64,000 nucleotides of DNA, taken from NCBI GenBank assembly GCA_001800975.1, contig MGWK01000057.1:1-64000 (forward strand), read 5' to 3'. The position numbers were made by a program, and so were the translations under genes. Every line of letters begins with the position of its first letter. Position 1 is the stretch's first letter. Below, in pieces: positions 6,026 through 61,930 of this stretch. This stretch comes from Flavobacteria bacterium RIFCSPLOWO2_12_FULL_35_11 (lineage in GTDB: Bacteria > Bacteroidota > Bacteroidia > Flavobacteriales > Flavobacteriaceae). The notes under the pieces were generated by a model. That model was not told the DNA's origin. It was given only the letters and a program-made list of their open reading frames with translations, and ran no database searches.

Positions 6026-6052
6026 TTTTAAATTTAATCAATGTGAATTTAA

Positions 6053-6991: not shown

Positions 6992-6995
6992 AATG

Positions 6996-7910: not shown

Positions 7911-7929
7911 ATATCGTAATTTTAACGTA

Positions 7930-7968: not shown

Positions 7969-7991
7969 ATATATTTAAAAAAAAGTTGAAA

Positions 7992-9278
7992 TTATCTTTC
8001 TTTAAATTCTTTAAATGGACGTAATGGTTCACCAACGTATAATTGACGTGGACGGCCAATTGGCTCTCCGTTTTCACGCATTTCTTTCCATTGTGCAATC
8101 CATCCCGGCAAACGGCCCACAGCAAACATAACTGTAAACATTGCCACAGGAATTCCTAAAGCTCTGTAAATTATTCCTGAATAGAAATCTACGTTAGGAT
8201 ATAATTTGCGTTCTGCAAAATATGGATCTTTAAGCGCCACTTCTTCTAAGTGTTTTGCAATTTTTAAAACTGGATCAGTCAAATTAAGATCTGCAAATAA
8301 TTCATCGGCTGCTTTTTTAATAATTCGGGCTCTTGGATCAAAGTTTTTGTAAACCCGGTGTCCAAATCCCATTAATCGGAAAGAATCATCTTTATCTTTA
8401 GCTCTATTGATAAACTTATCTACATCACCGCCATCTTTTTCAATTTCTTCCAACATTTCTAATACAGCTTGGTTTGCACCACCGTGAAGATGTCCCCATA
8501 ATGCAGAAACTCCTGCAGATACTGATGCAAACAATCCTGCTCCAGAAGAACCCACCATACGAACTGTTGAAGTTGAACAGTTTTGTTCATGATCCTCATG
8601 CAAAATTAGTAATTCATCAAGTGCCTTAACTGCAATTGGATTTATCACATATTGCTCTGTTGGCAATTTAAACATCAACTGCATGATATTTGAAATGTAG
8701 TCTAATGAATTGTCGGAATAGTTTAATGGCAATCCATTATTTCTTCTATGTGCCCAAGTTGCCAATACCGGAAATTTACCTAATATTTTAGTAACCGCAT
8801 TGTACATATCTTCTTTTGAGTTAACATTTACGATACCTGGATTGAAGGCAGTAAGCGCACTCGTTAAACTTGACAACATACCCATTGGGTGCGTTGATTT
8901 TGGAAAACCTTCAACGATATCTTTCATTTCTTCATTTACCATTGAATTCTTTTTGATATCAATCTGAAATTTTTTGAATTCTTCTTTTGTTGGAAGTTCT
9001 CCAAATATGATTAAAAATGCCACCTCTAAGAAACTCGCTTTTTTAGTCAAATCCTCTATGGAATATCCTCTGTGTCTTAAAATTCCTTTTTCACCATCTA
9101 AAAAAGTTATTTTACTGGCGCAGGAACCTGTGTTCTTATACCCAGTATCTAATGTGATTAAGCCTCCAGTTACGGTTCTTAATGTTGTAATATCCATGGC
9201 AATTTCATCTTCAGTTCCTACTAAAACTGGAAACTCATATTTTTTGCCGTTAAATTCTAAAATCGCTTTATTTGACAT
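7992..9278 (-). CDS. gltA: Citrate synthase
   Basis: A 428-residue type II (hexameric-family length) citrate synthase that condenses oxaloacetate with acetyl-CoA at the entry of the TCA cycle. The N-terminal small beta-domain begins FNGKKYEFPVLVGTEDEIAMD, and LDTGYKNTGSCASKITFLDG matches this type. Catalytic motifs include GHLHGGANQAV and GFGHRVYKNFDPRA (active-site His residues), and the CoA-site and Asp region VDFYSGIIYRALGIP. It is a single gene with its own terminator. The upstream region holds a perfect palindrome (9375-9397) that may be an operator. Confidence 0.98.
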   Translation of the reverse strand: MSNKAILEFNGKKYEFPVLVGTEDEIAMDITTLRTVTGGLITLDTGYKNTGSCASKITFLDGEKGILRHRGYSIEDLTKKASFLEVAFLIIFGELPTKEEFKKFQIDIKKNSMVNEEMKDIVEGFPKSTHPMGMLSSLTSALTAFNPGIVNVNSKEDMYNAVTKILGKFPVLATWAHRRNNGLPLNYSDNSLDYISNIMQLMFKLPTEQYVINPIAVKALDELLILHEDHEQNCSTSTVRMVGSSGAGLFASVSAGVSALWGHLHGGANQAVLEMLEEIEKDGGDVDKFINRAKDKDDSFRLMGFGHRVYKNFDPRARIIKKAADELFADLNLTDPVLKIAKHLEEVALKDPYFAERKLYPNVDFYSGIIYRALGIPVAMFTVMFAVGRLPGWIAQWKEMRENGEPIGRPRQLYVGEPLRPFKEFKER

Positions 9279-9371
9279 CGCTTATATAGATATATTAATG
9301 TTATTAAATTATTTATTATTAATTATCACGAATCTAATGAATTTTATAGGGAATTTATATGATTTAAGTCA

Positions 9372-9397
9372 ATGTTTTGCATAATACGTATGCAAAA
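9372..9397. promoter_or_regulatory. Perfect palindrome upstream of gltA, candidate operator
   Basis: TTTTGCATA (9375-9383) and TATGCAAAA (9389-9397) are perfect inverted 9-base arms around ATACG. The 16 bases 9372-9387 (ATGTTTTGCATAATAC) are identical to 49-64, upstream of the DUF4870-PadR operon. The site lies about 95-120 bases upstream of the gltA start, between gltA and the eno terminator. It is not followed by a U tract in the gltA direction, so it looks like a protein-binding site, not a terminator. Confidence 0.5.
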
Positions 9398-9411
9398 CGT
9401 ATACATTGTTA

Positions 9412-9448
9412 CATACAAAAAAAAACCGAAAGAATTCTCGGCTTTTTT
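9412..9448 (-). terminator. Terminator of enolase gene
   Basis: On the minus strand GCCGA pairs with TCGGT, extended by A/T pairs, around GAATTCTT. A run of nine T follows. It lies about 20 bases past the eno stop. Confidence 0.85.
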
Positions 9449-9467
9449 GCTATATAAAATAGAATCC

Positions 9468-10781
<1,314 letters not shown>

Positions 10782-10861
10782 TTACTGCAAGGTACAATTT
10801 TCAGGTCAAATTTTATGTAAATTAACCTGATTAATACGATAACGTTTTCGTTTTATTTTGA

Positions 10862-10899
10862 TCAAAAAAAGCCTTTAACGCTATGGCTAAAAGCTTTTT
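10862..10899 (-). terminator. Terminator of carA
   Basis: On the minus strand AAAAAGCTTTTA pairs imperfectly with TTAAAGGCTTTTT around GCCATAGCG and runs into a T tract. It begins about 5 bases after the carA stop codon. Confidence 0.75.
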
Positions 10900-10903
10900 A
10901 AAT

Positions 10904-12010
10904 TTATTGTTTTGATGCTTTTATATTTTCAATAAACTGGTCAAACAAATAGGATGAATCGTGTGGTCCCGGACTGGCTTCCGGATGATATTGAACCGAA
11001 AAACAATTTTTATTTTTCATTTTCATACCCGCCAGTGTTTCATCATTTAAATGAACATGCGTAATTTCAAATTCAGGGTGATTTTCAACTGCTGTTTTAT
11101 CAACAACAAAACCGTGGTTTTGCGAGGTTATTTCACCTTTTCCAGAAATTATGTTTTTTACCGGATGATTTATTCCGCGATGCCCATTGTGCATTTTATA
11201 GGTAGCAATGCCATTTGCCAAAGCAATTATTTGATGTCCCAAACAAATGCCAAACAAAGGTAAATTTTGGTTGATAATTTCTTTGGCCACTTGTTGCGCC
11301 GCAACTAAAGGTTCTGGATCGCCAGGTCCGTTTGACAAGAAAAAACCATCGGGATGAAATGAATTCATTTCCTCAAAAGTTGCGTTAAAAGGAAATACTT
11401 TTATGTAGCAATCTCTTTTTGCCAAATTTCTTAAAATATTCTTTTTGATGCCTAAATCCAATGCTGAAATTCTATAGGTTGCGTTTTCATCTCCAAAATA
11501 GTAAGATTCCTTTGCAGAAACCTTTGAAGCCAATTCCAATCCTTTCATATCAGGGACGGCATTTAATTTTTCTTTTAATGCATCAATATCAGTTTCCGTA
11601 GAAATAATGGCATTCATAGCGCCTTTATCTCTAATATAACGGACAACGGCTCTAGTGTCTATATCAGAAATTGCCATTAAATTTTGCTTTTCAAAATAAT
11701 TCTCCAAGGAATCTTGTGCATTTACCCTTGAATAATTAAAACTGAAATTCTTGCAAATTAACCCGGCAATTTTGATGGAATCAGATTCAATTTCCTCATC
11801 ATTTATTCCATAATTTCCAATATGCGCATTCGTTGCCAGCATTAACTGACCAAAATAAGAAGGATCTGTAAAAATTTCCTGATAACCAGTCATTCCTGTA
11901 TTGAAGCAAATTTCTCCAAATGCTGTACCGTCTCTTCCAATTGATTTTCCTTCGAAAATTGTTCCATCAGCCAAAAGCAAAATTGCCCTTTTACGTTTTG
12001 TATATTTCAT
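10904..12010 (-). CDS. carA: Carbamoyl phosphate synthase small (glutaminase) subunit
   Basis: A 368-residue subunit that hydrolyses glutamine and channels ammonia to CarB for carbamoyl phosphate, used in arginine and pyrimidine synthesis. The N-terminal CPSase small-chain domain shows FGEICFNTGMTGYQEIFTDP. The class I glutamine amidotransferase domain has SNGPGDPEP, the nucleophile elbow FGICLGHQI and the His-Glu pair in QYHPEASPGP. It lies directly downstream of the ribosomal operon but is separated by a terminator and has its own -7 element. carB is not in the window. Confidence 0.97.
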   Translation of the reverse strand: MKYTKRKRAILLLADGTIFEGKSIGRDGTAFGEICFNTGMTGYQEIFTDPSYFGQLMLATNAHIGNYGINDEEIESDSIKIAGLICKNFSFNYSRVNAQDSLENYFEKQNLMAISDIDTRAVVRYIRDKGAMNAIISTETDIDALKEKLNAVPDMKGLELASKVSAKESYYFGDENATYRISALDLGIKKNILRNLAKRDCYIKVFPFNATFEEMNSFHPDGFFLSNGPGDPEPLVAAQQVAKEIINQNLPLFGICLGHQIIALANGIATYKMHNGHRGINHPVKNIISGKGEITSQNHGFVVDKTAVENHPEFEITHVHLNDETLAGMKMKNKNCFSVQYHPEASPGPHDSSYLFDQFIENIKASKQ

Positions 12011-12040
12011 CCGTTTTTGTTACCTTTTTATTAGTCGCGT

Positions 12041-12048
12041 CAAATTTA
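12041..12048 (-). promoter_or_regulatory. Predicted -7 element of carA
   Basis: On the minus strand the sequence is TAAATTTG, an exact TAnnTTTG match, 30 bases before the carA ATG. No clear -33 TTTG is seen because the rplQ terminator occupies that place. Confidence 0.5.
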
Positions 12049-12053
12049 AATAT

Positions 12054-12090
12054 AAAAAAAAGGATAAACTATAAATAATTTATCCTTTTA
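12054..12090 (-). terminator. Terminator of the ribosomal protein operon
   Basis: The perfect 10-base stem AAAGGATAAA (12059-12068) / TTTATCCTTT (12079-12088) is followed on the minus strand by a T run (A at 12054-12060). It ends the long operon after rplQ. Confidence 0.88.
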
Positions 12091-12110
12091 ATAATATCAA
12101 TGAGTTGTCA

Positions 12111-12578
12111 TTATTTTGTTTCTTTACTGTCAACTTTAGCTTCAACAGTTTCTTCCACCTTTTTAGTTTTTCCTCTTCGAGTGGTTTTCTTTTTAGCTTT
12201 ATTGTTTGGATTGTAATTTGGGTTGTAATCAACCAATTCAATCATAGCCATAGGCGCATTATCTCCTTGACGACTTCCCAATTTAATGATACGAACGTAT
12301 CCTCCTGGTCTGTCGGCCACTTTTACAGAAACTTCTTTAAACAATTCTGTAACCATGAATTTATTTCTCAAATAGCTAAATACAACTCTTCTGTTGTGTG
12401 TTGTGTCATCTTTAGACTTTGTAATTAAAGGCTCTACAAATTGACGTAAAGCTTTTGCTTTTGCAACCGTGGTATTAATACGTTTGTGCTCTATTAAGGA
12501 ACAAGCCATATTAGCAAACATTGACTTTCTATGTGCTGTTTTTCTTCCTAAGTGATTAAATTTCTTTCCGTGTCTCAT
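12111..12578 (-). CDS. rplQ: 50S ribosomal protein L17
   Basis: L17, 155 residues, binds 23S rRNA near the tunnel exit. The N-terminal core ([18 protein letters not shown]) is standard. A charged Lys/Glu-rich tail after about residue 125 ([16 protein letters not shown] and on) extends beyond the ~120-residue E. coli protein, as is common in Bacteroidota. It is the last gene of the superoperon, 36 bases after rpoA. Confidence 0.98.
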
Positions 12579-12614
12579 CTCTTATGTTATCTTAATTAAA
12601 ACCTGAGTTTTAAA

Positions 12615-13607
12615 TTAATCTTTATCTAATTTGTATTTGCTTAAATCCATTCCAAAACTTAACCCTTTTATATGAACCAATTCATCTAATTCAGTTAAAG
12701 ATTTTTTTCCAAAATTACGGAACTTCATTAAATCGTTTTTATTGAATGATACCAAGTCTCCCAAGGTGTCAACTTCTGCAGCTTTTAAACAATTTAGTGC
12801 TCTTACGGATAAATCCATATCCACTAATTTTGTTTTTAGCAACTGGCGCATATGTAAAGATTCTTCATCATATGTTTCAGTTTGTGCTATTTCATCAGCT
12901 TCTAAAGTGATACGCTCGTCAGAGAATAACATAAAATGGTGAATCAATATTTTTGCAGCTTCTGTTAATGCATCTTTAGGAGAAATTGAACCGTCAGTAG
13001 TAATATCAAATACTAACTTTTCATAATCTGTTTTTTGCTCAACACGAAAATCTTCCACAGCATATTTTACATTTTTAATGGGTGTAAAAATTGAATCTGT
13101 AAAAATGGTTCCCAATGCAACGCCAGATTTTTTATTATCTTCTGCAGGTACAAAGCCTCTTCCTTTTTCTATGGTAATTTCAAAATCCAATGTAACAGAT
13201 TTCTCCATATTACAAATAACCAAATCGTGATTTAAAACTTGAAAACCAGAAATGTATTTTTGTAAGTCACCGGCAGTTAACTGCTCGTGTTTAGAAATTG
13301 AAATGTTTACTGTTTCTCTATCAGAATCTTCAATTTGTTTCTTAAAACGAACTTGTTTTAAGTTCAAAATAATTTCTGTTACGTCTTCAACAACTCCTTT
13401 AATTGTTGAAAATTCATGTTCAATACCTTCAATACGAAGTGAGGTTATTGCAAATCCCTCTAATGAAGACAACAACACTCTTCTTAAAGCATTCCCAACA
13501 GTTAAACCAAATCCTTGTTCTAACGGTCTGAATTCAAATCTACCGTTAAAATCGGTAGAATCAATCATAATTACTTTATCGGGCTTCTGAAAATTTAAAA
13601 TTGCCAT
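12615..13607 (-). CDS. rpoA: RNA polymerase alpha subunit
   Basis: A 330-residue alpha subunit. The N-terminal dimerisation domain includes [20 protein letters not shown], which nucleates polymerase assembly. The C-terminal domain (about 250-330) has the two helix-hairpin-helix elements, seen in [16 protein letters not shown] and [16 protein letters not shown], that contact UP elements and activators. Its place between rpsD and rplQ is the usual alpha-operon order. Confidence 0.99.
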
Positions 13608-13629
13608 AATTGAATTGGTATCTTTAAAA

Positions 13630-14235
13630 TTATTTAGAGTATAACTCTACGATTAATTGTTCCTTGATATTTTCTGGAATTTGAATTCTTTCAGGAACAC
13701 TAACAAAATTTCCTTGTTTGGTTTCTGAATTCCAAGAAAGCCATTCGTAAACATCACTTCTGTTAGCCAAAGAATTTTCAATAGCCAACAATGATTTTGA
13801 TTTTTCTCTTACAGCAACAACATCACCTGCATTTAATGAATAAGAAGGTATGTTAACCAACTCTCCATTTACAGTGATATGACGGTGAGACACCAATTGA
13901 CGTGCAGCACTACGACTAGGTGCAACACCCATTCTGTAAACTACGTTGTCTAAACGACATTCGCAAAGTTGTAATAAAATTTCACCAGTAATACCTTTAC
14001 TGCTTGAAGCTTTTTTAAATAAGTTTGCAAATTGTCTTTCCAAAATACCGTAAGTATATTTTGCTTTTTGCTTTTCAGCCAACTGAATAGAGTATTCAGA
14101 TTTTTTTCCTCTACGACGGTTAGCACCGTGTTGTCCTGGAGGATAATTTCTTTTTTCAAAAGATTTATCGTCTCCAAAAATTGCTTCTCCGAATTTACGG
14201 GCAATTTTAGTTTTTGGTCCTGTATATCTTGCCAT
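13630..14235 (-). CDS. rpsD: 30S ribosomal protein S4
   Basis: S4, 201 residues, a primary 16S rRNA-binding protein. It has no N-terminal zinc-binding Cys set, and carries the S4 RNA-binding domain (about 90-150; [20 protein letters not shown] and the His-rich HRHITVNG). In many bacteria S4 represses its own operon at the mRNA level. Here an 86-base gap with complementary arms precedes the gene (see 14251-14303). Confidence 0.98.
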
Positions 14236-52195: not shown

Positions 52196-54196
52196 ATGGA
52201 TAATTTTTGGCTGATCGTTTCATCAGCAATTATAACGGGCACAGGAATTATTAGTATTCCGCTTTTGCCTTCAAGAATAAAAGCTTTCGTTAATTTTCTC
52301 TTTGTGCTATTGGTGGCAATAACAACTTCCATTCCTGCCATAAATGCGCTTTTGGGCAACCCAATGGACATTTCATTGGCCGGATCTGCATTTTTTGGAG
52401 ATATTCCCATACGAATAGATGCCTTGTCGGCCTGGTTTATATTGATTATCAACTTAACTTGCGTCAACGGTGCTTTTTATGGCATTGGTTATATGAAACC
52501 TTACCATGAGCGAAAAGCAAATCTTTCCCTGCACTGGACACTTTTTCTGATTTTTCAAACCTCGATGCTTTGGGTTTGTATGTTACAGCATAGTTTGGCG
52601 TTTCTAATTGCGTGGGAAATGATGTCTTTGTCCTCCTTATTTTTGGTAATATTTGAACATGAAAAAAAGGAAACTTTAAAAGCGGGCATCAATTATATGG
52701 TGCAAATGCACATAGGCGTTGCTTTTTTAACTGTGGCTTTTATAGGCGTATATTTCGCCCAAGGTTCGTTTGATTTTTTGGCCATAAGCGACTATTTTGG
52801 AACTAATTACAACGCTTGGCTATTCTTGCTATTCTTTATTGGATTCGGAATAAAAGCAGGTTTTATACCATTGCATTCTTGGCTTCCGCATGCACATCCT
52901 GCCGCGCCTTCCCATATTTCAGGAGTAATGTCGGGCGTGATTGTAAAATTAGGAATCTACGGAATTATTCGGGTGGCATTAATGCTGAAAAGCGAATTGC
53001 TGCTCATTGGGGAAACGGTCCTTATCATTTCAATACTTACGGGTATATTTGGGATTCTAAATGCAAGTGTGCATCGGGATTTTAAAAAAATGCTGGCTTA
53101 TTGCACCATAGAAAACATAGGCATTATTGGAGCCGGAATTGGATTGTTTCTTATTGGAACTGCATATAACAATAATATGCTTATGGTCATCGGATTGAGT
53201 GGTGCTTTGTTGCATACCTTAAATCATTCCTTATTTAAATCGTTGCTGTTTTTCTCCGTGGGTTCCGTATATCAACAAACCCACACAAGAGATATGGAAA
53301 AATTAGGCGGATTAATAAAGCAAATGCCACAAACAGCCATCTTGTTTCTTATAGGTTCCATTGCCATTGGCGGATTGCCGCCTTTAAACGGTTTTATTTC
53401 AGAATTTTTAATTTATAACGGCTTTTTGAACGGAATAAATACCATTGGACTCACCCATTCTACCTTAATGATTCTTTCGCTGGCAAGTTTGGCTTTTATT
53501 GGCGGACTTTCATTGTTAACATTTACAAAAACCTTTGGAACTATATTTTTAGGAAATCCACGCCAGCAATTGCACAGTGTGCCTTCCGAAGTTTCCCTGT
53601 GGATGCGTGCACCGCAATATTTTATTGTTGCCATTATGTTGACTATCGGATTGTTTCCCCAATTTTATTTTTCGGTGACCCTGCAACTTATTCAATCGGT
53701 GTTGCCGGCTTCAAGTATGGTTAATTTAGAAACTTTCACCCCAATGATGGCGCTTATGGGTAATGTGGGTTTATATTCCATGTTATTTTTGGCACTGCTT
53801 GTTGCCATTTATCTTTTGAGAAATTATTTCGTAAGCCATCATCCAACACAAAAAACCGCCACCTGGGGTTGTGGCTATGTGGCTCCAAATGTACAGATGC
53901 AATACACCGGAAAATCTTTTTCAAAAAGTTTAGGAAAACTCATGGATATGGTGGTAAAGGAAAAGAAAAAATATACTGAAATAGAAGCAGGGGAAATTTT
54001 TCCGCAAACAAGAAATCACAACTCGCATTTTGTTGATTTCTTTGAAAATACCATATTTGATAGGGCGACAAAACAATTGCTCAAATTTTTGAATTATTTT
54101 CAATTTATACAAAACGGAAAAGTTCAAATGTATGTGGTTTACGGTTTATTCTTCATTCTTTTGATATTTTTTGGTACTATATTTAACCTAATCTAA
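52196..54196 (+). CDS. Hyf/NuoL-type proton-conducting membrane subunit 1
   Basis: A 666-residue antiporter-like subunit of a complex I / formate-hydrogenlyase type complex, with about 15 membrane helices. The central PF00361 region has GIKAGFIPLHSWLPHAHPAA and PSHISGVMSGVIVKLGIYGI, with the Lys and His residues of the proton channel; MLAYCTIENIGIIGAG follows. The C-terminal end has the HycC/HyfB-type motif TWGCGYVAPNVQMQYTGKSF. The stop codon overlaps the start of the next, paralogous gene by one base. It is the first gene of the seven-gene cluster. The role in ion pumping is inferred from the family. Confidence 0.93.
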   Translation: MDNFWLIVSSAIITGTGIISIPLLPSRIKAFVNFLFVLLVAITTSIPAINALLGNPMDISLAGSAFFGDIPIRIDALSAWFILIINLTCVNGAFYGIGYMKPYHERKANLSLHWTLFLIFQTSMLWVCMLQHSLAFLIAWEMMSLSSLFLVIFEHEKKETLKAGINYMVQMHIGVAFLTVAFIGVYFAQGSFDFLAISDYFGTNYNAWLFLLFFIGFGIKAGFIPLHSWLPHAHPAAPSHISGVMSGVIVKLGIYGIIRVALMLKSELLLIGETVLIISILTGIFGILNASVHRDFKKMLAYCTIENIGIIGAGIGLFLIGTAYNNNMLMVIGLSGALLHTLNHSLFKSLLFFSVGSVYQQTHTRDMEKLGGLIKQMPQTAILFLIGSIAIGGLPPLNGFISEFLIYNGFLNGINTIGLTHSTLMILSLASLAFIGGLSLLTFTKTFGTIFLGNPRQQLHSVPSEVSLWMRAPQYFIVAIMLTIGLFPQFYFSVTLQLIQSVLPASSMVNLETFTPMMALMGNVGLYSMLFLALLVAIYLLRNYFVSHHPTQKTATWGCGYVAPNVQMQYTGKSFSKSLGKLMDMVVKEKKKYTEIEAGEIFPQTRNHNSHFVDFFENTIFDRATKQLLKFLNYFQFIQNGKVQMYVVYGLFFILLIFFGTIFNLI

Positions 54197-56226
54197 TGGC
54201 TTATATTCAAACATATATAGCAATATTGGCTTTGTCACTTCTGGTGATACCGTTTCTAAAAGTGAAATGGAAGGGAATCATAACGCTTTCCCTGGTTATT
54301 TTTAATGCTATATTGACTGGATATCTTGCATTGCCTGCCTTGTTGGGCGAAAAATTGGAGTTTGTATTTCAGGGATCAATTGTTACGGGTGAAATCCCTG
54401 TCAGGATTGATGCTTTGTCTGCATGGTTTATGCTGCTGATTAACTTTACTATGATTACCGGCGCGTTGTATGGATTGCATTATATGAAAGCTTACAGAAA
54501 ACAGACTTCCAACCTGACTTTACATTGCCTTGCATACCTTTTGGTTCAAACCTCGCTCACGGCCATTTGTGTGATTCAAAATTCTCTGGTATTTTTATTT
54601 GCCTGGGAAATCATGACCATTTCAAGTTTTGTGTTGGTCATTTTTGAATATTACAAACAAAATACCTTAAAGGCTGGCATCAATTTTCTAATTCAGTCGC
54701 ACGCTGGCGTTTTATTTCTGACATTGGGTTTTATATGGGTATATTATCAAACAGGATCATATGATTTTAGTGCGATAAGTCAATTTTCAGTCAACTTTCC
54801 GCCTGTGACAAGTTTGGCCTTATTTTTCTTCTTTTTCATAGGTTTTGCCGTTAAAGCCGGATTTGTGCCTTTTCATACCTGGCTTCCATATGCACATCCT
54901 GCGGCTCCATCCCATATTTCAGGAGTAATGTCGGGCGTAATTATCAAAATCGGGATTTTTGGAATTTTGCGAATGCTGCAACTCATTCAAACCGATTATA
55001 TTGTATTGGGCTATATTATACTTGTTTTTTCCGTAATTTCAGGAATTTACGGTGTAATGCTCGCCATATTACAACACAATTTAAAGAAACTCCTCGCCTA
55101 CCACAGCATTGAAAATATTGGCATTATCGGCATAGGCATTGGGCTGGGAACTTTGGGATTGGGGCAACAAAACAGTACCTTAATTTTACTTGGATTTAGT
55201 GGAGCGCTGCTTCATGTACTCAATCATTCCCTTTTTAAATCCTTGCTTTTTTACAGTGCCGGAAATGTGTATCAAACCACGCACACTATGAATATTGAAC
55301 ATTTTGGAGGTTTGGTGAAGCAAATGCCGCATACCGCAATCTTATTTCTGATTGCAGCACTTGCCATATGCGGGCTTCCGCCTTTTAATGGTTTTGTTTC
55401 CGAATTTCTTATTTACTCAGGTTTGTTTGATGGAATGGAGAGCAAAGAAATGCTCAACCTAGTGGTGCTTCTGTTTTCAGTTTTTGGGATGGTTCTTATT
55501 GGCGGACTTGCCTTACTTTGTTTTACAAAAGCATTTGGCTCCATGTTTTTAGGAAACCCCAGACATCATTTTCAGACAGAACCAAAAGAATCTGGCAATG
55601 GAAAACTGGTGCCGATGTATATGGCGGCGGCATTCATTGTTGCCATTGGACTGTTTCCGAAATTTTTCTTTTCCCTTTTGAGTGAACCACTTAAATTGTA
55701 CTTGAACAAAATAAATTATACAGGATCGGTTTCAACAACTGTTTCAATTACCGAAACCATGCAAACTATTGGCTTTAGCGCAGCGGGATTTATAGTTTTA
55801 GGATTGCTTATTTTTTTTATCAGAAGAAAAATTACAGCCAAAATGCCAAGTCCTGTTTTAACAACTTGGGGTTGTGGCTATGTTGGCGAAACCGAAAAAA
55901 TGCAATATACGGCGAGTTCATTTATTAGATCTTATCGAAAACTTGCTGAACCCATGTTATCCATCCAAAAAAGGAAAATAGAAATTGATGGTGTTTTCCC
56001 GGTTTATGGAAGGCATGAAACCCATCCTTATGACAAAATTGAAGAATGGTTTATTGATAAACCTTGGAACTTAATGAAAGTTTTCTTCGGAAAATTCAGA
56101 TTTCTGCAAAATGGAAATCCGCAATTTTATGTGCTCTACGGAGCTGCTTTTATTGCATTAATTATAGCTGTTCCGCTAATTAATGACATCATAAAAAAAA
56201 TAATTTATTTCTTAAATCAGATATAA
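54196..56226 (+). CDS. Hyf/NuoL-type proton-conducting membrane subunit 2
   Basis: A 676-residue paralogue of the preceding subunit. It shares HTWLPYAHPAAPSHISGVMS, the Lys-bearing SGVIIKIGIFGILRM, LLAYHSIENIGIIGIG, and the same C-terminal motif TWGCGYVGETEKMQYTASSF. Two tandem HyfB-type subunits replace the HyfB and HyfD pair of the E. coli Hyf cluster. One base separates it from the NuoH-type gene. It is probably an independent ion channel in the membrane arm. Confidence 0.93.
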   Translation: MAYIQTYIAILALSLLVIPFLKVKWKGIITLSLVIFNAILTGYLALPALLGEKLEFVFQGSIVTGEIPVRIDALSAWFMLLINFTMITGALYGLHYMKAYRKQTSNLTLHCLAYLLVQTSLTAICVIQNSLVFLFAWEIMTISSFVLVIFEYYKQNTLKAGINFLIQSHAGVLFLTLGFIWVYYQTGSYDFSAISQFSVNFPPVTSLALFFFFFIGFAVKAGFVPFHTWLPYAHPAAPSHISGVMSGVIIKIGIFGILRMLQLIQTDYIVLGYIILVFSVISGIYGVMLAILQHNLKKLLAYHSIENIGIIGIGIGLGTLGLGQQNSTLILLGFSGALLHVLNHSLFKSLLFYSAGNVYQTTHTMNIEHFGGLVKQMPHTAILFLIAALAICGLPPFNGFVSEFLIYSGLFDGMESKEMLNLVVLLFSVFGMVLIGGLALLCFTKAFGSMFLGNPRHHFQTEPKESGNGKLVPMYMAAAFIVAIGLFPKFFFSLLSEPLKLYLNKINYTGSVSTTVSITETMQTIGFSAAGFIVLGLLIFFIRRKITAKMPSPVLTTWGCGYVGETEKMQYTASSFIRSYRKLAEPMLSIQKRKIEIDGVFPVYGRHETHPYDKIEEWFIDKPWNLMKVFFGKFRFLQNGNPQFYVLYGAAFIALIIAVPLINDIIKKIIYFLNQI

Positions 56227-56227
56227 T

Positions 56228-57133
56228 ATGATAAGTCTTGTATTGATAGTGCTCACAAGTTTGTTTTTTATGGGACTTGTAATAAGAACCAAAAGCATTG
56301 CTTCAGGAAGAAAAGGGCCGGGGTTGTTTCAACCTATGAAAGACATCATCCGTTTGTGGAAAAAAGGCGCTGTTTACAGCAATACCACGAGTTTTATATT
56401 TCAAATTGCGCCAAGCATTTATTTCTCCTCCATCCTCATGGCTATTTTGGTGATTCCGTTTGGTCATTACAAAGGAATTATTTCCTTTGATGGCGATTTT
56501 GTGTTTTTTGCCTACGTGCTGGCGCTTGGAAAATTCTTCAGCATAATTGGAGCATTAGATACCGGAAGCAGCTTTGAAGGAATGGGAGCAAGCAGAGAAG
56601 CGCTGTATTCTATGCTGGCAGAACCCGCTTTCTTCATATTAATGGGCTCTTTTGCGCTTTATACAGGACATACTTCATTTCACGAAATATTTACTTCCCT
56701 TCATTTTGGTTCTTATATTTCTTACGGACTTGGCGCTTTGGCAACTTTTGTTTTGGTGATGATTGCGATGATAGAAAACAGTCGGATGCCGGTTGATGAT
56801 CCCAAAACACACTTGGAATTAACAATGGTGCATGAGGTAATGATTTTGGACAACAGCGGCTTCGATTTGGGATTGATTTTGTATGGCACAAATTTGAAAT
56901 TTGCGATGTACGGAGCGCTTATCGCCAATTTTTTTACCGGTTCTTTTTCTATCTTAATTTCTATCTTGATATTTTTAGGCGTTCAAATGATGTTTGCCAC
57001 CTTGGTTGGAATTTTAGAATCATTTTCGGCACGATTCAGAATGGGTAACAACGCGCAATTCATATTTACCCTTACCTCAATTTCAATATTGATTTTTTTC
57101 GGGGTTTTGCTGATTATGGGGAAATTTGTGTAG
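56228..57133 (+). CDS. NuoH/HyfC-type membrane subunit
   Basis: A 301-residue membrane protein of the respiratory-chain NADH dehydrogenase subunit 1 / HycD family, the subunit linking the membrane arm to the peripheral arm. It has eight or so helices. The characteristic acidic loop is present (FEGMGASREALYSMLAEPAF), as is the ENSRMPVDDPKTHLELTMVH segment that forms the cavity for quinone in complex I and is conserved in hydrogenase relatives. It lies in the expected cluster position. Confidence 0.95.
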   Translation: MISLVLIVLTSLFFMGLVIRTKSIASGRKGPGLFQPMKDIIRLWKKGAVYSNTTSFIFQIAPSIYFSSILMAILVIPFGHYKGIISFDGDFVFFAYVLALGKFFSIIGALDTGSSFEGMGASREALYSMLAEPAFFILMGSFALYTGHTSFHEIFTSLHFGSYISYGLGALATFVLVMIAMIENSRMPVDDPKTHLELTMVHEVMILDNSGFDLGLILYGTNLKFAMYGALIANFFTGSFSILISILIFLGVQMMFATLVGILESFSARFRMGNNAQFIFTLTSISILIFFGVLLIMGKFV

Positions 57134-57189
57134 TAGAAATATTAAATATTTGAAATATAAACTTGTTATAATTTTTAAAAATTAAAGAA

Positions 57190-57819
57190 ATGACCAACGT
57201 ATTATTAATCATATTCGCCATGTCGCTGATCTATTTAAGCATCGCCAACCGACTGATGAGTTACGTGAAGATTCTTGCTTTTCAAGGCATCTTGCTGTTT
57301 GGCGTGAGTTTTATTGAGTTGGGTGAAATGAGTCCGCTCAACCTCACCTTTATCTTATTGGAAACCATCGTTTTTAAAACCATAGCCGTCCCCTTATTTC
57401 TCAAATATGTGATCCAGCATAATGAAATTACCCGGGAAGCAGAACCATATGTGCCACATTTTATATCATTAATTGTGGTTACAACGATTGTGGTTGCCAC
57501 CTTTTTACTGTCAAATACCATTGAAAATGTCCAATTAAACAAAGTCTATTTTGTGGCGGCATTATCTGCATTATTTACAGGATTGTACCTCATTGGCACC
57601 AGAAAAAAAATCCTAACTCACGTGATGGGATTTTTGGTGATTGAAAACGGCGTTTTTATTTTATCGCTTGCGGTAGGTAACGAAATGCCAATGCTATTAA
57701 ACACAGGAATATTGCTCGATCTTTTTATCACGGTTTTGCTGCTTGGAATTTTTGTAAACAAAATTGGCGATGTTTTAAAAGATGTAGACGTAGATCAATT
57801 AAGAAAACTAAAAGATTAA
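57190..57819 (+). CDS. HyfE-type membrane subunit
   Basis: A 209-residue membrane protein with about six or seven helices, corresponding to HyfE (related to NuoK with extra helices). Segments such as LAFQGILLFGVSFIELGE and FLVIENGVFILSLAVGNEMP (with the Glu of the NuoK-type channel) support this. It follows the NuoH-type gene by 56 bases and precedes the HyfF-type gene by one base. Confidence 0.9.
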   Translation: MTNVLLIIFAMSLIYLSIANRLMSYVKILAFQGILLFGVSFIELGEMSPLNLTFILLETIVFKTIAVPLFLKYVIQHNEITREAEPYVPHFISLIVVTTIVVATFLLSNTIENVQLNKVYFVAALSALFTGLYLIGTRKKILTHVMGFLVIENGVFILSLAVGNEMPMLLNTGILLDLFITVLLLGIFVNKIGDVLKDVDVDQLRKLKD

Positions 57820-57820
57820 C

Positions 57821-59248
57821 ATGGCCATACCTTATCTCATCGGAGCAATTGCAATTGCAATCTCTTTGTTTTTTAACAGGAATAAAAAAATGAATTATAT
57901 TCTGGTGGCTATTTTTCTGCTCCTTCAGTGGGCATTTACCATCTACGAATACAACCACCAAAATATCGTGGAATTTGACTATTTTCTGCCTGATGCATTA
58001 GCTGTTTTATTGCTTATTACTGCCAGTATCATTGCAGTCCCGGCATTCTACCACAGTTATGTTTTCTTCACAAAAAATGAAGACAATCCAAGAAATAGGG
58101 CGATGTATTATGCTTCTATGGTGGTCCTGATTTTCGCATTGAGTATGGCCTATCTTTCCAATCATATTGCGGTAACGTGGATTTTTGTGGAGATGACAAC
58201 ACTTTCTGCTTCCGCATTAATTTACCACCGAAGAAATGTACGCACTTTAGAAGGTACCTGGAAATATATTTTTGTTTGTTCCATCAGCATCACATTTGTT
58301 TTTATTGGCATTTTATTTCTGAGTATTGCCGTTCAGCAACTTGGAATAAGTGACCTTACTTTTACTTCTCTCATAAAAAGGGCTGCGGAATTGGATATTT
58401 TTTGGTTGCGATTGGCATTTATCTTCATTTTTACCGGATACACCGCCAAAATAGGATTGGTTCCAATGTATACTGCCGGAATTGACGCAAAAGACAAAGC
58501 GCCTTCACCTGCCGGCGCATTATTGTCGAGCGTTTTAATGAATGTAGGATTTGTCGGAATTTTCCGTTTTTATGAAATCATCGCGCAAACATCGCTTCAT
58601 TCCTGGGCTAATAATATCATTATGATTTCTGCCGTTCTTTCCATATTTATCGCAACGGTTTATATGATTAAAGTGAAAAATATCAAAAGGATGTTCGCCT
58701 ATTCAAGTATTGAACATATGGGCATTGTGATGCTTGGCATTGCAGCCGGAGGCATTGGCTATTATGCTGCCATACTTCATATTATATTGCATTCTTTTGT
58801 GAAATCGAGTTTGTTTTTTCAAATGGGTCAAATTTACAGGGTTTACAATAGCAAAAGCATTTACGATGTGGGGAATTACTTCAAATACAACCTTACCGGT
58901 GCTATGGTGATACTTTTGGGATTTATCTCCGCAACCGCGATGCCGCCTTCGGGATTGTTTGTCAGCGAATTTTTGATTTTCCGATCCTTGTTTGAAGCCC
59001 ATTATCTTTTTGTCCTTATTTTTATTTTACTGCTGCTCACCATTATTATTTGGGCTTTCGGAAAAAATATATTTAAACTGTTATTTACGCCGGCAGTTGA
59101 TTTTAAGGACGAAAATGTAGAACACATAAAACCGTATGAATCCATTTCGCAATTTATTTTGTTGGGATTGGTTGTTTATCTCGGAATGAATCCGCCGCTT
59201 CAAATGGTTGAATTGATCAATGAAGCCGTTAAAAATTTACCGCTATAG
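57821..59248 (+). CDS. HyfF/NuoN-type proton-conducting membrane subunit
   Basis: A 475-residue antiporter-like subunit with about 13 helices, the third of its kind in the cluster. Conserved features are YTAKIGLVPMYTAGIDAKDK, APSPAGALLSSVLMNVGFVG, MFAYSSIEHMGIVMLGIAAG with its channel Glu and His, and SATAMPPSGLFVSEFLIF. It resembles HyfF, which lies next to HyfE and HyfG in E. coli. One or two bases separate it from its neighbours. Confidence 0.93.
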   Translation: MAIPYLIGAIAIAISLFFNRNKKMNYILVAIFLLLQWAFTIYEYNHQNIVEFDYFLPDALAVLLLITASIIAVPAFYHSYVFFTKNEDNPRNRAMYYASMVVLIFALSMAYLSNHIAVTWIFVEMTTLSASALIYHRRNVRTLEGTWKYIFVCSISITFVFIGILFLSIAVQQLGISDLTFTSLIKRAAELDIFWLRLAFIFIFTGYTAKIGLVPMYTAGIDAKDKAPSPAGALLSSVLMNVGFVGIFRFYEIIAQTSLHSWANNIIMISAVLSIFIATVYMIKVKNIKRMFAYSSIEHMGIVMLGIAAGGIGYYAAILHIILHSFVKSSLFFQMGQIYRVYNSKSIYDVGNYFKYNLTGAMVILLGFISATAMPPSGLFVSEFLIFRSLFEAHYLFVLIFILLLLTIIIWAFGKNIFKLLFTPAVDFKDENVEHIKPYESISQFILLGLVVYLGMNPPLQMVELINEAVKNLPL

Positions 59249-59250
59249 TT

Positions 59251-60747
59251 ATGAACGCAATTTCAATTAAAAATAACCAGCAAATTCCTTTTGATTCAAT
59301 TCCTGTTTTGGAATATGAACAATTTTTGGACTATAATACTTCATTGTTGCATCTTGATGACAATCATTGCGTAAATTATTACGGCATTCCTTATCAGGGC
59401 AACATAAAACTCATTTGCTGTATTGCTAACGATAAAGTTGGACTTATAAACATTTCTTCGTGCCTTGTTGAACTTCAAAAACCGCTTGAATCTTTTAGCC
59501 AGCACCATCTCGCTTTTGAAAAATTCGAAAGGGAAATTCACGAAAATTTCGGCATTCATTTTATCAATCATCCTTGGTTAAAACCCGTTCGTTATCCCGT
59601 TAATCAAGCTGATAAAAACAGCACGATTGCAAACTATCCATTTTTTAAGATTGAAAGCGAAGAACTGCACGAAGTTGGCGTTGGACCAATTCATGCAGGC
59701 ATTATTGAGCCGGGACATTTTCGATTTATTTGTAATGGAGAACAAATTCTTCATCTCGAAATTCAGTTGGGCTATCAGCATCGAGGCATTGAAAATTTGT
59801 TTTTGCAGAAGAAAAAATTAATTGAACTTCATACGCTGGCCGAAAATATTTCGGGAGATTCTGTTGTGGAACACACCACGGCTTTTGTGAATTTATGGGA
59901 AACTTTATGCGAACATAAAACCGATGGGGATTTGCATTTTGCAAGAACGCTTGCAGCTGAATTGGAACGCATTGCGATACATACCGGCGATTTAAGTGGT
60001 ATGTGTACCGATGTTGCCTACCAATTAGGCAGTTCTGTTTTTGGCAGATTAAGAACCCCAATCATAAACTTTTTTCAGCAATGGTGCGGAAATCGACTCG
60101 CAAAAAGCTTAATCCGTGCAGGAAAAACCAATTTCCATTTTTCTGCGGAATTGGGAGAAACCCTTAAAAATGTATTGGATAAATTTGAACCGGATTTTGA
60201 TGAAATGTGCGACGAAACTTTCGGATCTCCAACTGTTATGGGAAGATTTGAGAAAACAGGAATGGTAACTAACGAACTTGGAAAAAGCATTGGACTTGTA
60301 GGCATGTCGGCCCGAATGACCAACATAAATCGTGATATCAGAACTTCACATCCTTGCAATCTTTATGAAACTTTGGCCCACCAACCCATTCTAAAACACC
60401 ACGGAGATGTTTATTCACGCGCCCAAATCAGAAGAGAAGAAGTGAAACAATCCATTGCCTATATCAGGGATTTAATTGCTGCGATTCCTTCTGAAAATTT
60501 AAACAGAAAACCACTCTCGCAACCAACTCCCAATTCATTTGCGCTGTCGTTGACCGAAGGTTGGCGCGGAGAAATTTGCCATTGCGCCATTACAGACGCA
60601 AATGGAGAATTGTTACACTATAAAATAAAAGATCCTTCGTTTCACAATTGGTTGGCTTTGGCTTTGGCAGTTCGAAACAATGAAATTTCAGATTTCCCGA
60701 TAAGCAACAAAAGTTTCGATTTTTCTTACTCCGGACACGATTTATAA
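59251..60747 (+). CDS. HyfG/HycE-type large subunit (NuoC-NuoD fusion) without Ni-Fe ligands
   Basis: A 498-residue fusion. The N-terminal ~130 residues are NuoC-like (FEREIHENFGIHFINHPWLK). The rest is NuoD / hydrogenase-large-subunit-like (PIHAGIIEPGHFRFICNGEQ, EIQLGYQHRGIENL, ELERIAIHTGDLSGMCTDVA). In group 4 hydrogenases the Ni-Fe site is bound by a CGIC motif and a C-terminal DPCxxC motif. Here the first reads S201-G-D-S204 (ISGDSVVEH) and the second D-P-S463-F-H-N466, so all four Cys are replaced. It cannot bind a canonical Ni-Fe centre. It is probably the substrate- or partner-binding subunit of an Ehr-type complex; the substrate is unknown. Confidence 0.92.
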   Translation: MNAISIKNNQQIPFDSIPVLEYEQFLDYNTSLLHLDDNHCVNYYGIPYQGNIKLICCIANDKVGLINISSCLVELQKPLESFSQHHLAFEKFEREIHENFGIHFINHPWLKPVRYPVNQADKNSTIANYPFFKIESEELHEVGVGPIHAGIIEPGHFRFICNGEQILHLEIQLGYQHRGIENLFLQKKKLIELHTLAENISGDSVVEHTTAFVNLWETLCEHKTDGDLHFARTLAAELERIAIHTGDLSGMCTDVAYQLGSSVFGRLRTPIINFFQQWCGNRLAKSLIRAGKTNFHFSAELGETLKNVLDKFEPDFDEMCDETFGSPTVMGRFEKTGMVTNELGKSIGLVGMSARMTNINRDIRTSHPCNLYETLAHQPILKHHGDVYSRAQIRREEVKQSIAYIRDLIAAIPSENLNRKPLSQPTPNSFALSLTEGWRGEICHCAITDANGELLHYKIKDPSFHNWLALALAVRNNEISDFPISNKSFDFSYSGHDL

Positions 60748-60767
60748 TTTCAAGCAAAATAGCAATT

Positions 60768-61523
60768 ATGATTAACAATTTAAAAATACTCATCCACCAA
60801 GGAAAACAATACATTCCTGATGTAACAAATGCTGAAATCCCGGGAATTTTTAGGGGAATACCTGTCATCAGCAATGAAAAAGTGGATAAAAAAGCACTTG
60901 AAGAAATTTGTCCTACCCAAGCCATTTCAATAAATCCAGTGCAACTTGATTTGGGAAAATGCACTTTTTGCGGAGAATGCGCTATTGCTTTTCCCAACAA
61001 AATAAACTTTACCACAACCTACAAAATCGCAACCAACAGCAGAGAACGATTGGTGGTAAAAGAAGGGGAAGAAAGTCTCATTGTTCTCAACCCAGATTTA
61101 ATCAGAAAAGAAATTAGCGACTATTTTAGCGGTTCCTTAAAACTACGTCAGGTTTGTGCCGGAGGAGACGGAAGTTGCGAATTGGAACTTGGTGCCACCG
61201 GAAATGTGAACTTTGATATGGGACGTTTTGGAATTGAATTTGTGGCCTCACCGCGCCATGCCGATGGAATCGTAATTACCGGACCAATCACAAAAAATAT
61301 GGCAGCGCCTTTACAAATTTGTTATGACGCCATGCCTGAACCAAAAATTATTATTCTGGCAGGAACTGATGCCATCAGCGGAGGAATTTTTATCGATAGT
61401 CCGGCGCTGAACAGAAGTTTTTTGGAAACACACCATGTAGATTTATACGTTCCGGGAAACCCGATTCATCCGCTGACTTTTATCAATGGCATTTTGGATT
61501 TGATACGCAAAAGGAAAGCATAA
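60768..61523 (+). CDS. Ferredoxin-domain / NuoB-type small subunit fusion with degenerate proximal cluster site
   Basis: A 251-residue fusion equal in order to HyfH plus HyfI. The ferredoxin-like part (about 30-85) keeps one complete [4Fe-4S] set, C48 (ICPTQAI) with C65, C68 and C71 (CTFCGEC). The second set is lost, with Phe at position 75. The NuoB / hydrogenase-small-subunit part (about 125-245) normally binds a proximal cluster through four Cys. Here the first CxxC reads D134-G-S-C137 (with another Cys at 130), the third ligand is D201 (GTDAISGG) and the fourth is N231 (VPGNPIHP). The cluster is probably absent. It ends the seven-gene run, 20 bases after the large subunit. Confidence 0.88.
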   Translation: MINNLKILIHQGKQYIPDVTNAEIPGIFRGIPVISNEKVDKKALEEICPTQAISINPVQLDLGKCTFCGECAIAFPNKINFTTTYKIATNSRERLVVKEGEESLIVLNPDLIRKEISDYFSGSLKLRQVCAGGDGSCELELGATGNVNFDMGRFGIEFVASPRHADGIVITGPITKNMAAPLQICYDAMPEPKIIILAGTDAISGGIFIDSPALNRSFLETHHVDLYVPGNPIHPLTFINGILDLIRKRKA

Positions 61524-61543: not shown

Positions 61544-61930
61544 ATGACACAATTCACCTTGCTTTTTGCCAGTATTTTAGGAGGTCTGGCAGTTGTTTTT
61601 GGCGCTTTTGGAGCGCATGCGTTAAAAAAAACACTATCAGAAGAACAATTAAAAAGTTTTGAAACCGGCGTTAAATACCAAATGTATCACGCCCTTGTGT
61701 TGCTGGTTATAGGTTTCAACTTCAAGTTAGAAACCGCTTCAGAAAAATATATGGTTTACAGTTTTACGGCGGGCATACTTTTATTTTCGTTCAGTATTTA
61801 CGGATTGGTAATTTCTTCTGCAAAAAACAAAAAACTAACATTTCTGGGTCCAGTTACGCCGCTTGGCGGTTTGCTGTTGATTATTGGCTGGAGTTTATTG
61901 GGATATGCCGTGTACACAATGCCGTTTTGA
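61544..61930 (+). CDS. DUF423 family membrane protein
   Basis: A 128-residue membrane protein with four predicted helices. The family signature is clear: FGAFGAHALKKTLSEEQLKS, FETGVKYQMYHALVLLVIG and the C-terminal TPLGGLLLIIGWSLLG. DUF423 proteins (E. coli YgdD-like) have no established function. The gene lies 20 bases after the Hyf-like cluster and could be cotranscribed, though a functional link is not evident. Confidence 0.93.
   Translation: MTQFTLLFASILGGLAVVFGAFGAHALKKTLSEEQLKSFETGVKYQMYHALVLLVIGFNFKLETASEKYMVYSFTAGILLFSFSIYGLVISSAKNKKLTFLGPVTPLGGLLLIIGWSLLGYAVYTMPF

Follow-up and report, generated by a model that had tools for sequence, protein, structure and literature searches.

Seven close-packed open reading frames (ORFs) on the forward strand, at positions 52196-61523 of the 64,000-nucleotide stretch of DNA analysed here (the window), encode two B-type subunits followed by C, E, F and G subunits and an H/I fusion, with 0-57 bp between consecutive genes (Table 1). 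The host genome is Lutibacter-like and measures 3.56 Mb. The Hyf-type layout B, B, C, E, F, G, H/I proposed in a preliminary description of this DNA was confirmed by the ORFs and by Pfam and NCBIfam matches, which agreed; Pfam was run on 19 proteins of the window, where 57 ORFs of at least 120 aa were present. The best NCBIfam match of B1 and B2 was hydrogenase 4 subunit B (E 3e-152 and 1e-144, respectively), and the other five proteins matched NADHdh, HyfE-like, HyfF/PRK08676-like, 30 kDa plus 49 kDa fusion, and Fer4 plus Oxidored_q6 fusion families in Pfam/NCBIfam; the best NCBIfam score of every operon protein was under the curated cut-off of the model.

Table 1. Genes and ligand sites of the operon, with their positions in the window.
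Feature	Positions	Strand	Evidence
B1: HyfB/NuoL-M-type antiporter-like subunit, 666 aa	52196..54196	+	Proton_antipo_M E 2e-52
B2: second HyfB-type subunit, 676 aa	54196..56226	+	Proton_antipo_M E 5e-57
C: HyfC/NuoH-type anchor subunit, 301 aa	56228..57133	+	NADHdh E 4e-31
Ehr loop of C, residues 190-203 (DDPKTHLELTMVHE)	56795..56836	+	Aligned with NuoH loop holding D213-E220
E: HyfE-type membrane subunit, 209 aa	57190..57819	+	Oxidored_q2 E 4e-5; NF008556 hydrogenase 4 membrane subunit E 2e-15
F: HyfF/NuoN-type antiporter-like subunit, 475 aa	57821..59248	+	Proton_antipo_M E 1e-41
G: large subunit (NuoC+NuoD-like), 498 aa, without Ni-Fe ligands	59251..60747	+	Complex1_49kDa E 6e-32
G 201-204 (S-G-D-S), at HyfG CGIC (first Ni-Fe CxxC)	59851..59862	+	E. 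coli HyfG alignment
G 492-495 (S-Y-S-G), at HyfG C-terminal CYSC (second Ni-Fe CxxC)	60724..60735	+	E. coli HyfG alignment
HI: ferredoxin domain + NuoB/HyfI-like small subunit fusion, 251 aa	60768..61523	+	Oxidored_q6 E 6e-19, Fer4 E 3e-4
C48, C65, C68, C71 of HI: sole remaining [4Fe-4S] motif	60909..60980	+	102/102 rows and 30/30 rows
D134 + C137 of HI: former N2 ligands 1, 2	61167..61178	+	HI alignments
D201 of HI: former N2 ligand 3	61368..61370	+	HI alignments
N231 of HI: former N2 ligand 4	61458..61460	+	HI alignments

The neighbours of the operon in the window were recQ, asnB and DUF423; as described previously, no formate dehydrogenase, hyp gene or NADH module was found beside it by Pfam. 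Elsewhere in the genome, ORFs named by reading comprised nuoABCD at a contig end, a Hox-type hydrogenase and a further [NiFe] hydrogenase accompanied by hyp genes, and ORFs resembling 2-oxoacid:ferredoxin oxidoreductase (named by eye) adjoined nuo. Promoter and terminator scans at the locus gave a signal no better than chance, and scans of viral sequences yielded no virus-borne relative. When the neighbouring genes of 81 loci (80 named ones and the window) were clustered, no family outside the operon was shared by more than six of them. The commonest was a divergent CRP-like regulator (6/81 loci), followed by two families at 5 loci each (names by eye); upstream partners are under-sampled in these counts since upstream flanks are short and many loci end in or just past the operon.

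Peripheral arm and family assignment

Judged by its sequences, the complex belongs to the Ehr type within the complex I/group 4 hydrogenase superfamily, in a Bacteroidota Ehr subfamily that lacks the equivalents of both the N2 and N6a clusters. The operon encodes group-4-hydrogenase-like subunits, with a large subunit devoid of CxxC Ni-Fe ligands, which is how Ehr is defined in PMC6349859, PMC10432482 and PMC10284858. Membrane subunits of the antiporter-like, NuoH-like and HyfE-like kinds, a further Ehr feature, lie in the same cluster. Furthermore, the large-subunit tree separates 61 Ehr rows (SH-aLRT 99) from EcHyfG and EcNuoCD, which were the only non-Ehr rows in it and served to root it. 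An N2-like cluster, found in the other Ehr compared but not here, lies outside the definition given in the three papers cited. The absence of CxxC holds in Ehr only "in most cases", and a four-Cys Desulfotomaculum ruminis complex is filed under Ehr (PMC3569383). The Ehr literature consulted states the function to be unknown or never investigated; the established enzyme activity that would have contradicted the preliminary description was not found there. No earlier report of an N2-less Ehr was found in the literature searched, whose coverage leaves out the main Ehr papers, and an earlier mention is possible.

All four Ni-Fe Cys announced as missing were indeed absent from G when aligned with E. 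coli HyfG, with S201-G-D203-S204 in place of CGIC and S492-Y-S-G495 in place of CYSC. Among 92 Ehr rows, Cys was never present at position 201 and was present once at 204, and S492 and G495 were invariant (92/92). D203 occurred in 74/74 N2-less and in 18/18 to 20/20 N2-bearing Ehr large subunits but not in three HyfG/NuoD references; Allomeiothermus displayed E at this position. The motifs GPxHA, EPGHFRF, G-D and SYxGxD were common to Ehr and the window G. The 20 N2-bearing Ehr large subunits share 57 invariant residues, and 52 of these recur in ≥95% of the 74 N2-less ones, most of the Ehr core having therefore outlived N2; G136, an Ehr-specific invariant of the large subunit, has disappeared from the N2-less clade except in 3/74 rows. 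The peripheral-arm fold also appeared retained, as had been claimed: the model of G (pLDDT 83) had E. coli HycE as top match (7z0s_E, Z 35.4, rmsd 3.0, 464 aligned), and residues 112-248 of the HI model (pLDDT 85) best matched E. coli HycG (7z0t_G, Z 14.2, rmsd 1.9, 136 aligned).

At the ligand positions of the proximal (N2-equivalent) [4Fe-4S] cluster, HI reads D134, C137, D201 and N231, so that three of the four Cys are replaced, in keeping with the earlier estimate of at least half; the N6a-equivalent Cys are absent as well. Alignment of 102 fusion proteins gave CCCC at the N2 columns in 14 rows and D-x-(D/E)-(N/Y) in 88. These columns were unambiguous, which rules out merely shifted Cys, an outcome that would have overturned the preliminary description. 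The 88 rows corresponded to 83 distinct ones (L097-L101 are apparently L040-L044), and three more (L053 being L070 again) gave 86 distinct N2-less records, in which D134 (86/86), D201 (85/86) and N231 (85/86) were practically fixed; loss of N2 is hence not decay. C137 was present in 78 records, the other 8 having A, N, T or V there, a pattern by which it is a dispensable leftover Cys. The single ferredoxin-like set noted before, C48/C65/C68/C71, was present in all fusion rows examined and is presumably N6b-like. A new cluster formed by G C40, C56, C57, C252, C443 and C445, common in the N2-less clade, was considered and rejected, as five of the six were absent in one row, G026; C252 occurred also in 4/6 N2-bearing rows from other phyla.

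Membrane arm and the loop of subunit C

Alignment with references showed that B1 keeps E141, K220, K251, H344 and E403, B2 keeps E138, K220, K251, H344 and E403, and F keeps E124, K148, K210, K289 and E383. The B-type E/K/K/H/E sites were present in 102-103/103 B rows and the F-type E/K/K/K/E sites in 67-68/68 F rows. The claim that channel Lys, His and Glu are retained in three antiporter-type subunits thus held at these sites but not at M240/N241 of F, which are Lys in E. coli NuoN/NuoM and L/N in HyfF.

Subunit C keeps R28, E132, D190, E197 and R269. The NuoH-type loop is present as claimed, but "acidic" was too simple a description of it, E216 and E218 of NuoH being K193 and H195 here. Both residues belong to the Ehr motif of the loop, D(D/N)Px(T/S)HLELTMxHE. 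H195, E197, H202 and E203 were present in 63/64 N2-less rows (L163 differed at all four) and in 15/15 other Ehr rows, including Allomeiothermus, also N2-less. HLELTMxHE does not occur in E. coli HyfC or NuoH, and no earlier mention of it was found in the literature searched. In the MBS complex, the TMH5-6 loop of the NuoH-like subunit is one of three loops that bridge the arms (PMC7684303).

Distribution, phylogeny and likeness to known systems

Records assigned by name to seven Bacteroidota orders have D/x/D/N at the N2 positions; carriers include Niastella vici DJ57, Chryseolinea serpens DSM 24574 and Arcticibacter eurypsychrophilus MJ9-5. The query that retrieved the 80 named loci was derived from N2-less rows, so that all of them are N2-less by selection. 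In a phylum sample, 18/395 genomes matched, 15 of them at full length (2 N2-less, namely the window and G069, 12 CCCC, and G075, which was left out); the three partial matches were two CCCC and G288, which resembles complex I. In a class sample, 59/391 matched, and the 30 loci covered were 4 N2-less and 26 CCCC, the other 29 being left out. All four N2 Cys were present in the small subunits of the 20 further Ehr complexes sampled (14 Bacteroidota, 5 Pseudomonadota, 1 Actinomycetota), and the loss needs two changes in the tree, which bears out the expectation that loss of the proximal cluster is unusual among Ehr.

The large-subunit tree placed one loss on a single Bacteroidota branch (support 91, lower than the 95 starred by the tool), beside relatives with all four Cys; the Cys losses, which we had been advised to check in relatives, and the D-x-D-N replacement are shared by this clade. 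On this quickly built tree two losses (41 rows) were required, and 0/500 shuffles were as low. The second, apparently separate, loss was that of Allomeiothermus silvanus, with T, D, E and S at the N2 sites, again including two acidic residues, and with exactly C48/C65/C68/C71 kept. Its grouping in one clade with the N2-less Bacteroidota was disfavoured (AU P = 0.0013), although the independence of this loss may be overstated because it rests on a single long-branch row. N6a was lost in one N2-bearing branch, and N6a and N2 were both lost in the window's clade; there N6a may have gone before or after N2, as L071 (the N2-bearing tree sister) and the similar rows L189-L191 keep both sets. Median dN/dS values of 0.03-0.09 in all seven genes, with no stops in the rows compared, showed strong purifying selection at the sequence level, and gene order was kept in many loci.

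As regards known systems, Ehr, first named in Geobacter, shares with the window the subunits B-C-E-F-G-I/HI, the lack of Ni-Fe Cys and the loop (S/T)HLELTMxHE, but its other rows, apart from Allomeiothermus and the N2-less clade, keep the four N2 Cys where D/x/D/N stands here. E. coli hydrogenase 4/FHL (Hyf, Hyc) has a similar gene order and similar folds; in contrast, the window operon has neither the four Ni-Fe Cys nor the four proximal [4Fe-4S] Cys, no HyfA or FdhF, and two B genes instead of a HyfD gene. Complex I (Nuo) has a homologous core and membrane arm, whereas the window operon lacks the NADH module (NuoEFG), the N2 set and the N6a Cys, with D134/C137 at the N2 tandem Cys and G202 at the column of the NuoD Tyr, a residue of the quinone site. 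The Mrp Na+/H+ antiporter has antiporter-like subunits and a possibly common mode of action, but its subunit set is without NuoH, NuoB and NuoD, while the window complex has a NuoH-type anchor and a full peripheral arm (C, G, HI). The sulfane reductase MBS of Pyrococcus furiosus is likewise derived from group 4 and has no working Ni-Fe site; it acts through a proximal [4Fe-4S] with three Cys ligands (PMC7684303), whereas Asp/Asn occupy three of the four proximal positions here and the sequence does not provide such a polysulfide-reducing cluster.

Possible modes of action

We favour, tentatively, an ion-translocating complex, antiporter-like or gated, that carries a redox sensor, over an electron-transfer enzyme; its driver is probably not ordinary electron transfer. 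Relay steps in FHL are each <14 Å (PMC9474812), and removal of one cluster therefore makes a longer gap. With N2 gone, electrons from the remaining cluster would arrive at the membrane or at the former active-site cavity too slowly to be useful, and with its electron path cut the cavity would no longer perform electron-driven chemistry. The three antiporter-like subunits would go on carrying protons or Na+. The D/D/N site may hold a fixed negative charge or a hard cation instead of a cubane. The lone cluster probably looks towards a soluble partner of the ferredoxin-like kind and would be a redox sensor gating the complex, or structural. We infer the electron gap and the D/D/N geometry from sequence comparison. 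A bolder version, possible but held with less confidence, is a complex-I-type machine without electron transfer to the cavity, in which a fixed acidic/amide site has taken the place of N2, binding a hard cation or freezing the charge, and a non-redox event (ion, ligand or metal chemistry) at HLELTMxHE moves ions; by extension, the core reaction of the Ehr family may never have needed N2. The earlier proposal that the complex might couple ion transport to an unspecified redox partner or a non-redox process was supported.

A less likely account is that a non-redox reaction at the interface cavity (hydration, hydrolysis or metal-ion exchange, for example) either powers ion flow or is powered by it, with C H195/E197/H202/E203, G H148/D203 and HI D134/D201/N231 as candidate residues. 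The conservation of HLELTMxHE and of D203 across Ehr and their absence from the E. coli and HyfG/NuoD references, the arm-bridging role of the corresponding MBS loop and the survival of most of the Ehr core after N2 loss are consistent with it. Conversely, no gene for a substrate or enzyme recurs near the loci examined, Allomeiothermus has E at 203, and the mutual closeness of the candidate residues derives from alignment, not coordinates.

It is unlikely that the complex is still a redox enzyme whose lone cluster passes electrons to an acceptor docked nearby, thus driving the pump. The invariance of C48/C65/C68/C71, kept even in Allomeiothermus, also fits electron transfer to some acceptor, and the ORFs beside nuo point to ferredoxin-linked enzymes in the genome; on the other hand, the flanks examined hold no conserved partner gene, and homologous folds place the N6b-like position far from the coupling loops. 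Geobacter Ehr proteins, whose N2 state was left out of our analysis, are commoner on formate than on hydrogen, which adds to this account, and a possible formate dehydrogenase link was raised (PMC7894505).

Quite improbable is an unusual Fe-S or mononuclear metal centre with Asp/Asn (plus Cys) ligands that replaces N2 and still conducts electrons. Asp can ligate Fe-S clusters, and this, with the frequency of C137, keeps an odd cluster at the N2 site under consideration, as does the fixation of D/D/N. Loss of C137 was paired with loss of G C445 (4/6 vs. 2/68 rows; Fisher P = 1.9e-4), the sole column among 53 comparable ones so linked, but the link may rest on two events because L150, L152 and L167 form one clade. 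The other residues tolerated at 137, and G026 with no Cys at 137, 443 or 445, argue against such a centre. That the operon is a functionless leftover of an Ehr or hydrogenase locus in decay is highly implausible: the family has seen repeated losses of cluster ligands (N6a; N6a and N2), but the low dN/dS, intact frames, retained gene order and newly fixed clade-wide residues speak against decay.

How electron transfer at N2 couples to distant membrane pumping is an open question in complex I. A family that has given up N2 while selection strongly maintains its membrane arm and interface residues constitutes a natural experiment, in which N2-less Ehr can show the role of the coupling machinery without electrons; the complex is experimentally accessible, because records of named strains carry the operon. 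The persistence of 52/57 Ehr-wide invariant residues after N2 loss constrains Ehr function.

Organization and surroundings of the operon

The genome to which the window belongs (contig C57) comprised 3.56 Mb in 98 contigs and was 99.8% complete. The seven ORFs were separated by intergenic gaps of 0-57 bp, and their Pfam and NCBIfam names matched those expected for a Hyf-like complex, the top NCBIfam scores all being below the curated cut-offs. Upstream, on the opposite strand, recQ and asnB were found. A DUF423 membrane protein gene lay 21 bp downstream of HI (the ferredoxin-small subunit fusion), and a relative of it likewise followed the HI gene in the closely related loci L098, L099 and, at a greater distance, L097. 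The window also contained a 602-aa ORF without Pfam match at E 0.001.

Elsewhere in the genome, ORFs named by eye included nuoABCD at a contig end, a Hox-type hydrogenase, and a second [NiFe] hydrogenase with hyp genes. The absence of maturation genes near the complex, as given in the preliminary description, is thus a local one.

Among relatives, a divergently transcribed CRP/FNR-like regulator (by eye) preceded the first B gene at six loci (L151, L128, L127, L138, L145, and L168), mostly of Bacteroidales/Marinilabiliales type, with one from Chitinophagales. In the divergent relative L045 (genome G026), transhydrogenase genes identified by eye as pntA/pntB-like lay close to the operon, and genome G471 carried two fusion-gene copies (L087/L096) about 7.6 kb apart on contig C17.

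Coordinates of the operon and other features
Feature	Record	Positions	Description
B1	window	52196-54196	same strand as other six
B2	window	54196-56226	same strand as other six
C	window	56228-57133	same strand as other six
HLELTMxHE	window	56795-56836	motif in C
E	window	57190-57819	same strand as other six
F	window	57821-59248	same strand as other six
G	window	59251-60747	same strand as other six
HI	window	60768-61523	same strand as other six
DUF423 gene	window	61544-61930	
602-aa ORF	window	3734-5542	
L045	genome G026	10936-13747	
L180	Allomeiothermus silvanus pMESIL01	4975-12150	Ehr operon with H/I fusion, N2 Cys lost

Cofactor sites of the peripheral arm

In the large subunit G, the two Ni-Fe CxxC motifs of E. 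coli HyfG were replaced by S-G-D-S and S-Y-S-G. The four ligand sites of the proximal [4Fe-4S] cluster (N2) in the small-subunit half of HI were occupied by D134, C137, D201, and N231, and the ferredoxin half displayed one [4Fe-4S] motif (C48, C65, C68, and C71), the CxxCxxC of the first motif and the last CP being missing; in complex I numbering, this corresponds to retention of N6b and loss of N6a and N2. AlphaFold2 models of HI (pLDDT 85) and G (pLDDT 83) retained the parental folds, matching HycG (HI residues 112-248; Z 14.2, rmsd 1.9, 136 aligned) and HycE (Z 35.4, rmsd 3.0, 464 aligned), with low confidence at residues 132-163, 477-483, and 486-498 of G, which was modelled without partners. 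All these results agreed with the preliminary description, which had proposed loss of the Ni-Fe ligands and of at least half of the proximal ones, a single remaining ferredoxin-like [4Fe-4S] set, and a preserved fold.

Orthologues were present in 7 of 38 genomes at genus level (window counted), in 1 of 296 in the order-level sample (the window's own), and, with a threshold of E 1e-22, in 18 of 395 in the phylum sample, where 15 were full-length. Records carrying the names Lutibacter, Flavobacteriaceae or Bacteroidetes supplied fusion-protein relatives at 84-94%, which makes a Lutibacter-like host probable. The named scan kept 80 loci (76 in Bacteroidota-named records, three under phylum-less names, and one labelled Fidelibacterota), mostly from MAGs whose taxonomic label may be wrong; 45 of the 80 were assigned to seven named orders (Flavobacteriales, Bacteroidales, Chitinophagales, Marinilabiliales, Saprospirales, Cytophagales, and Sphingobacteriales). 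The scan query was built from N2-less rows, so that the counts reflect conservation within the clade and not its share: the N2 Cys set was missing in 88 of 102 aligned fusion proteins and complete (CCCC) in 14, and C48/C65/C68/C71 were present in all 102. A sample at class level gave 59 matching loci; among the 30 that were read, 26 were CCCC and 4 N2-less. Across 86 distinct N2-less records (the 88 minus five repeats plus three from the class-level sample), D134 was invariant, D201 and N231 were each found in 85 (one E and one Y, respectively), and position 137 was C in 78, N in 3, T in 2, A in 2, and V in 1.

The 20 N2-bearing large subunits of Ehr (energy-converting hydrogenase-related) complexes had 57 invariant residues in common; 52 of these were each retained by 95% or more of the 74 N2-less large subunits, and Allomeiothermus retained 55. 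Ehr-specific G136 of G was lost in the N2-less clade (kept in 3/74), which had fixed residues of its own, for example N90 and S136 in HI (81/81) and Q276, W278, K285, R289 (74/74), and T245 (73/74) in G. Loss of C137 tracked that of C445 in G (4/6 vs. 2/68; Fisher P 1.9e-4), this being one of 53 comparable columns and three of the rows belonging to one clade.

Membrane arm and C-subunit loop

The channel motifs previously described in three antiporter-type subunits were confirmed across relatives. The columns of NuoM E144, K234, K265, and H348 were conserved in all 103 B rows and that of E407 in 102; 99 of the 103 came from N2-less and 4 from N2-bearing loci. Among the 68 F rows, of which 65 were from N2-less and 3 from N2-bearing loci, the columns of NuoN E133, K158, K217, and K295 were fully conserved and the TM12 site was Glu in 67. 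F lacked the TM8 Lys, as does E. coli HyfF. Two B genes occurred in 38 of 49 loci and one in 11, counting loci whose first B started >400 bp inside the record.

In the C subunit, the loop previously described as NuoH-type and acidic, which bears E216 and E218 in NuoH, was changed to D(D/N)Px(T/S)HLELTMxHE. H195, E197, H202, and E203 were conserved in 63 of 64 N2-less rows (L163 differed at all four) and in all 15 other Ehr rows, Allomeiothermus included. By alignment, we take this to be the TMH5-6 loop of MBS. Scored by these four H/E positions, HLELTMxHE, a possible positive marker of Ehr, occurred in 78 of 79 aligned Ehr C subunits and was absent from E. coli HyfC and NuoH. In the available text of PMC7684303, the TMH5-6 loop of the NuoH-like subunit of MBS is one of three loops bridging the peripheral and membrane arms.

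History of the cluster loss and possible function

In a quick tree of G alone, a subunit that does not carry the N2 trait, 40 N2-less Bacteroidota rows grouped with an SH-aLRT support of 91, short of the 95 that the tool marks with a star; their sister was N2-bearing L071 (joint support 99). The N2 state required two changes on this tree vs. a mean of 18.4 in shuffles. The second loss was that of Allomeiothermus silvanus plasmid pMESIL01, with T, D, E, and S at the N2 sites and the same four ferredoxin Cys retained; a single clade of all N2-less rows was rejected (AU P 0.0013), a result to be taken with caution given the long Allomeiothermus branch. The plasmid had a second site matching the fusion protein (268 residues at 100%). 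Separate losses of N6a were seen in other rows that bear N2 (L072, L081, L195, and L199), and L071 and the similar L189-L191 kept both clusters, so that either order of N6a and N2 loss would fit the window's branch.

Conservation of the antiporter residues argues for continued ion movement. The invariance of the lone cluster suggests that it acts as a sensor, has a structural role, or exchanges electrons with a docked partner; a sensor/antiporter complex is the reading that we tentatively rank first. In FHL, according to the available text of PMC9474812, every relay step is <14 Å. Removal of N2 would leave one cluster, with the next possible site two steps away, and this speaks against chemistry driven by electrons at the cavity. 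Non-redox chemistry there, ranked second, seems rather unlikely. Electron transfer from the cluster to a docked acceptor of another kind, third in rank, likewise seems rather unlikely. The two Asp at old ligand sites (Asp and Glu in Allomeiothermus) would approximate the net charge of an oxidised four-Cys cubane and might serve as a charge mimic or bind a hard cation. An odd electron-conducting metal centre at the N2 site, fourth in rank, is improbable. Decay ranks last and is very hard to credit, with near-orthologue dN/dS medians of 0.03-0.09 (top single pair 0.113; 6 or 15 pairs per gene) and internal stops absent in the rows compared.

Ehr complexes are known. The portions available of PMC10432482, PMC10284858, and PMC7894505 describe their function as unknown or as never having been investigated, and those of PMC6349859 and PMC7894505 propose formate dehydrogenases as partners. 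A full-text literature search, covering parts of papers and with the founding Ehr papers outside its scope, found no description of an Ehr without the proximal cluster among the matches listed. By the published definition, as worded in the available text, the window complex is an Ehr; judged from sequence against the literature searched, it appears to be new among Ehr by its cofactor content.
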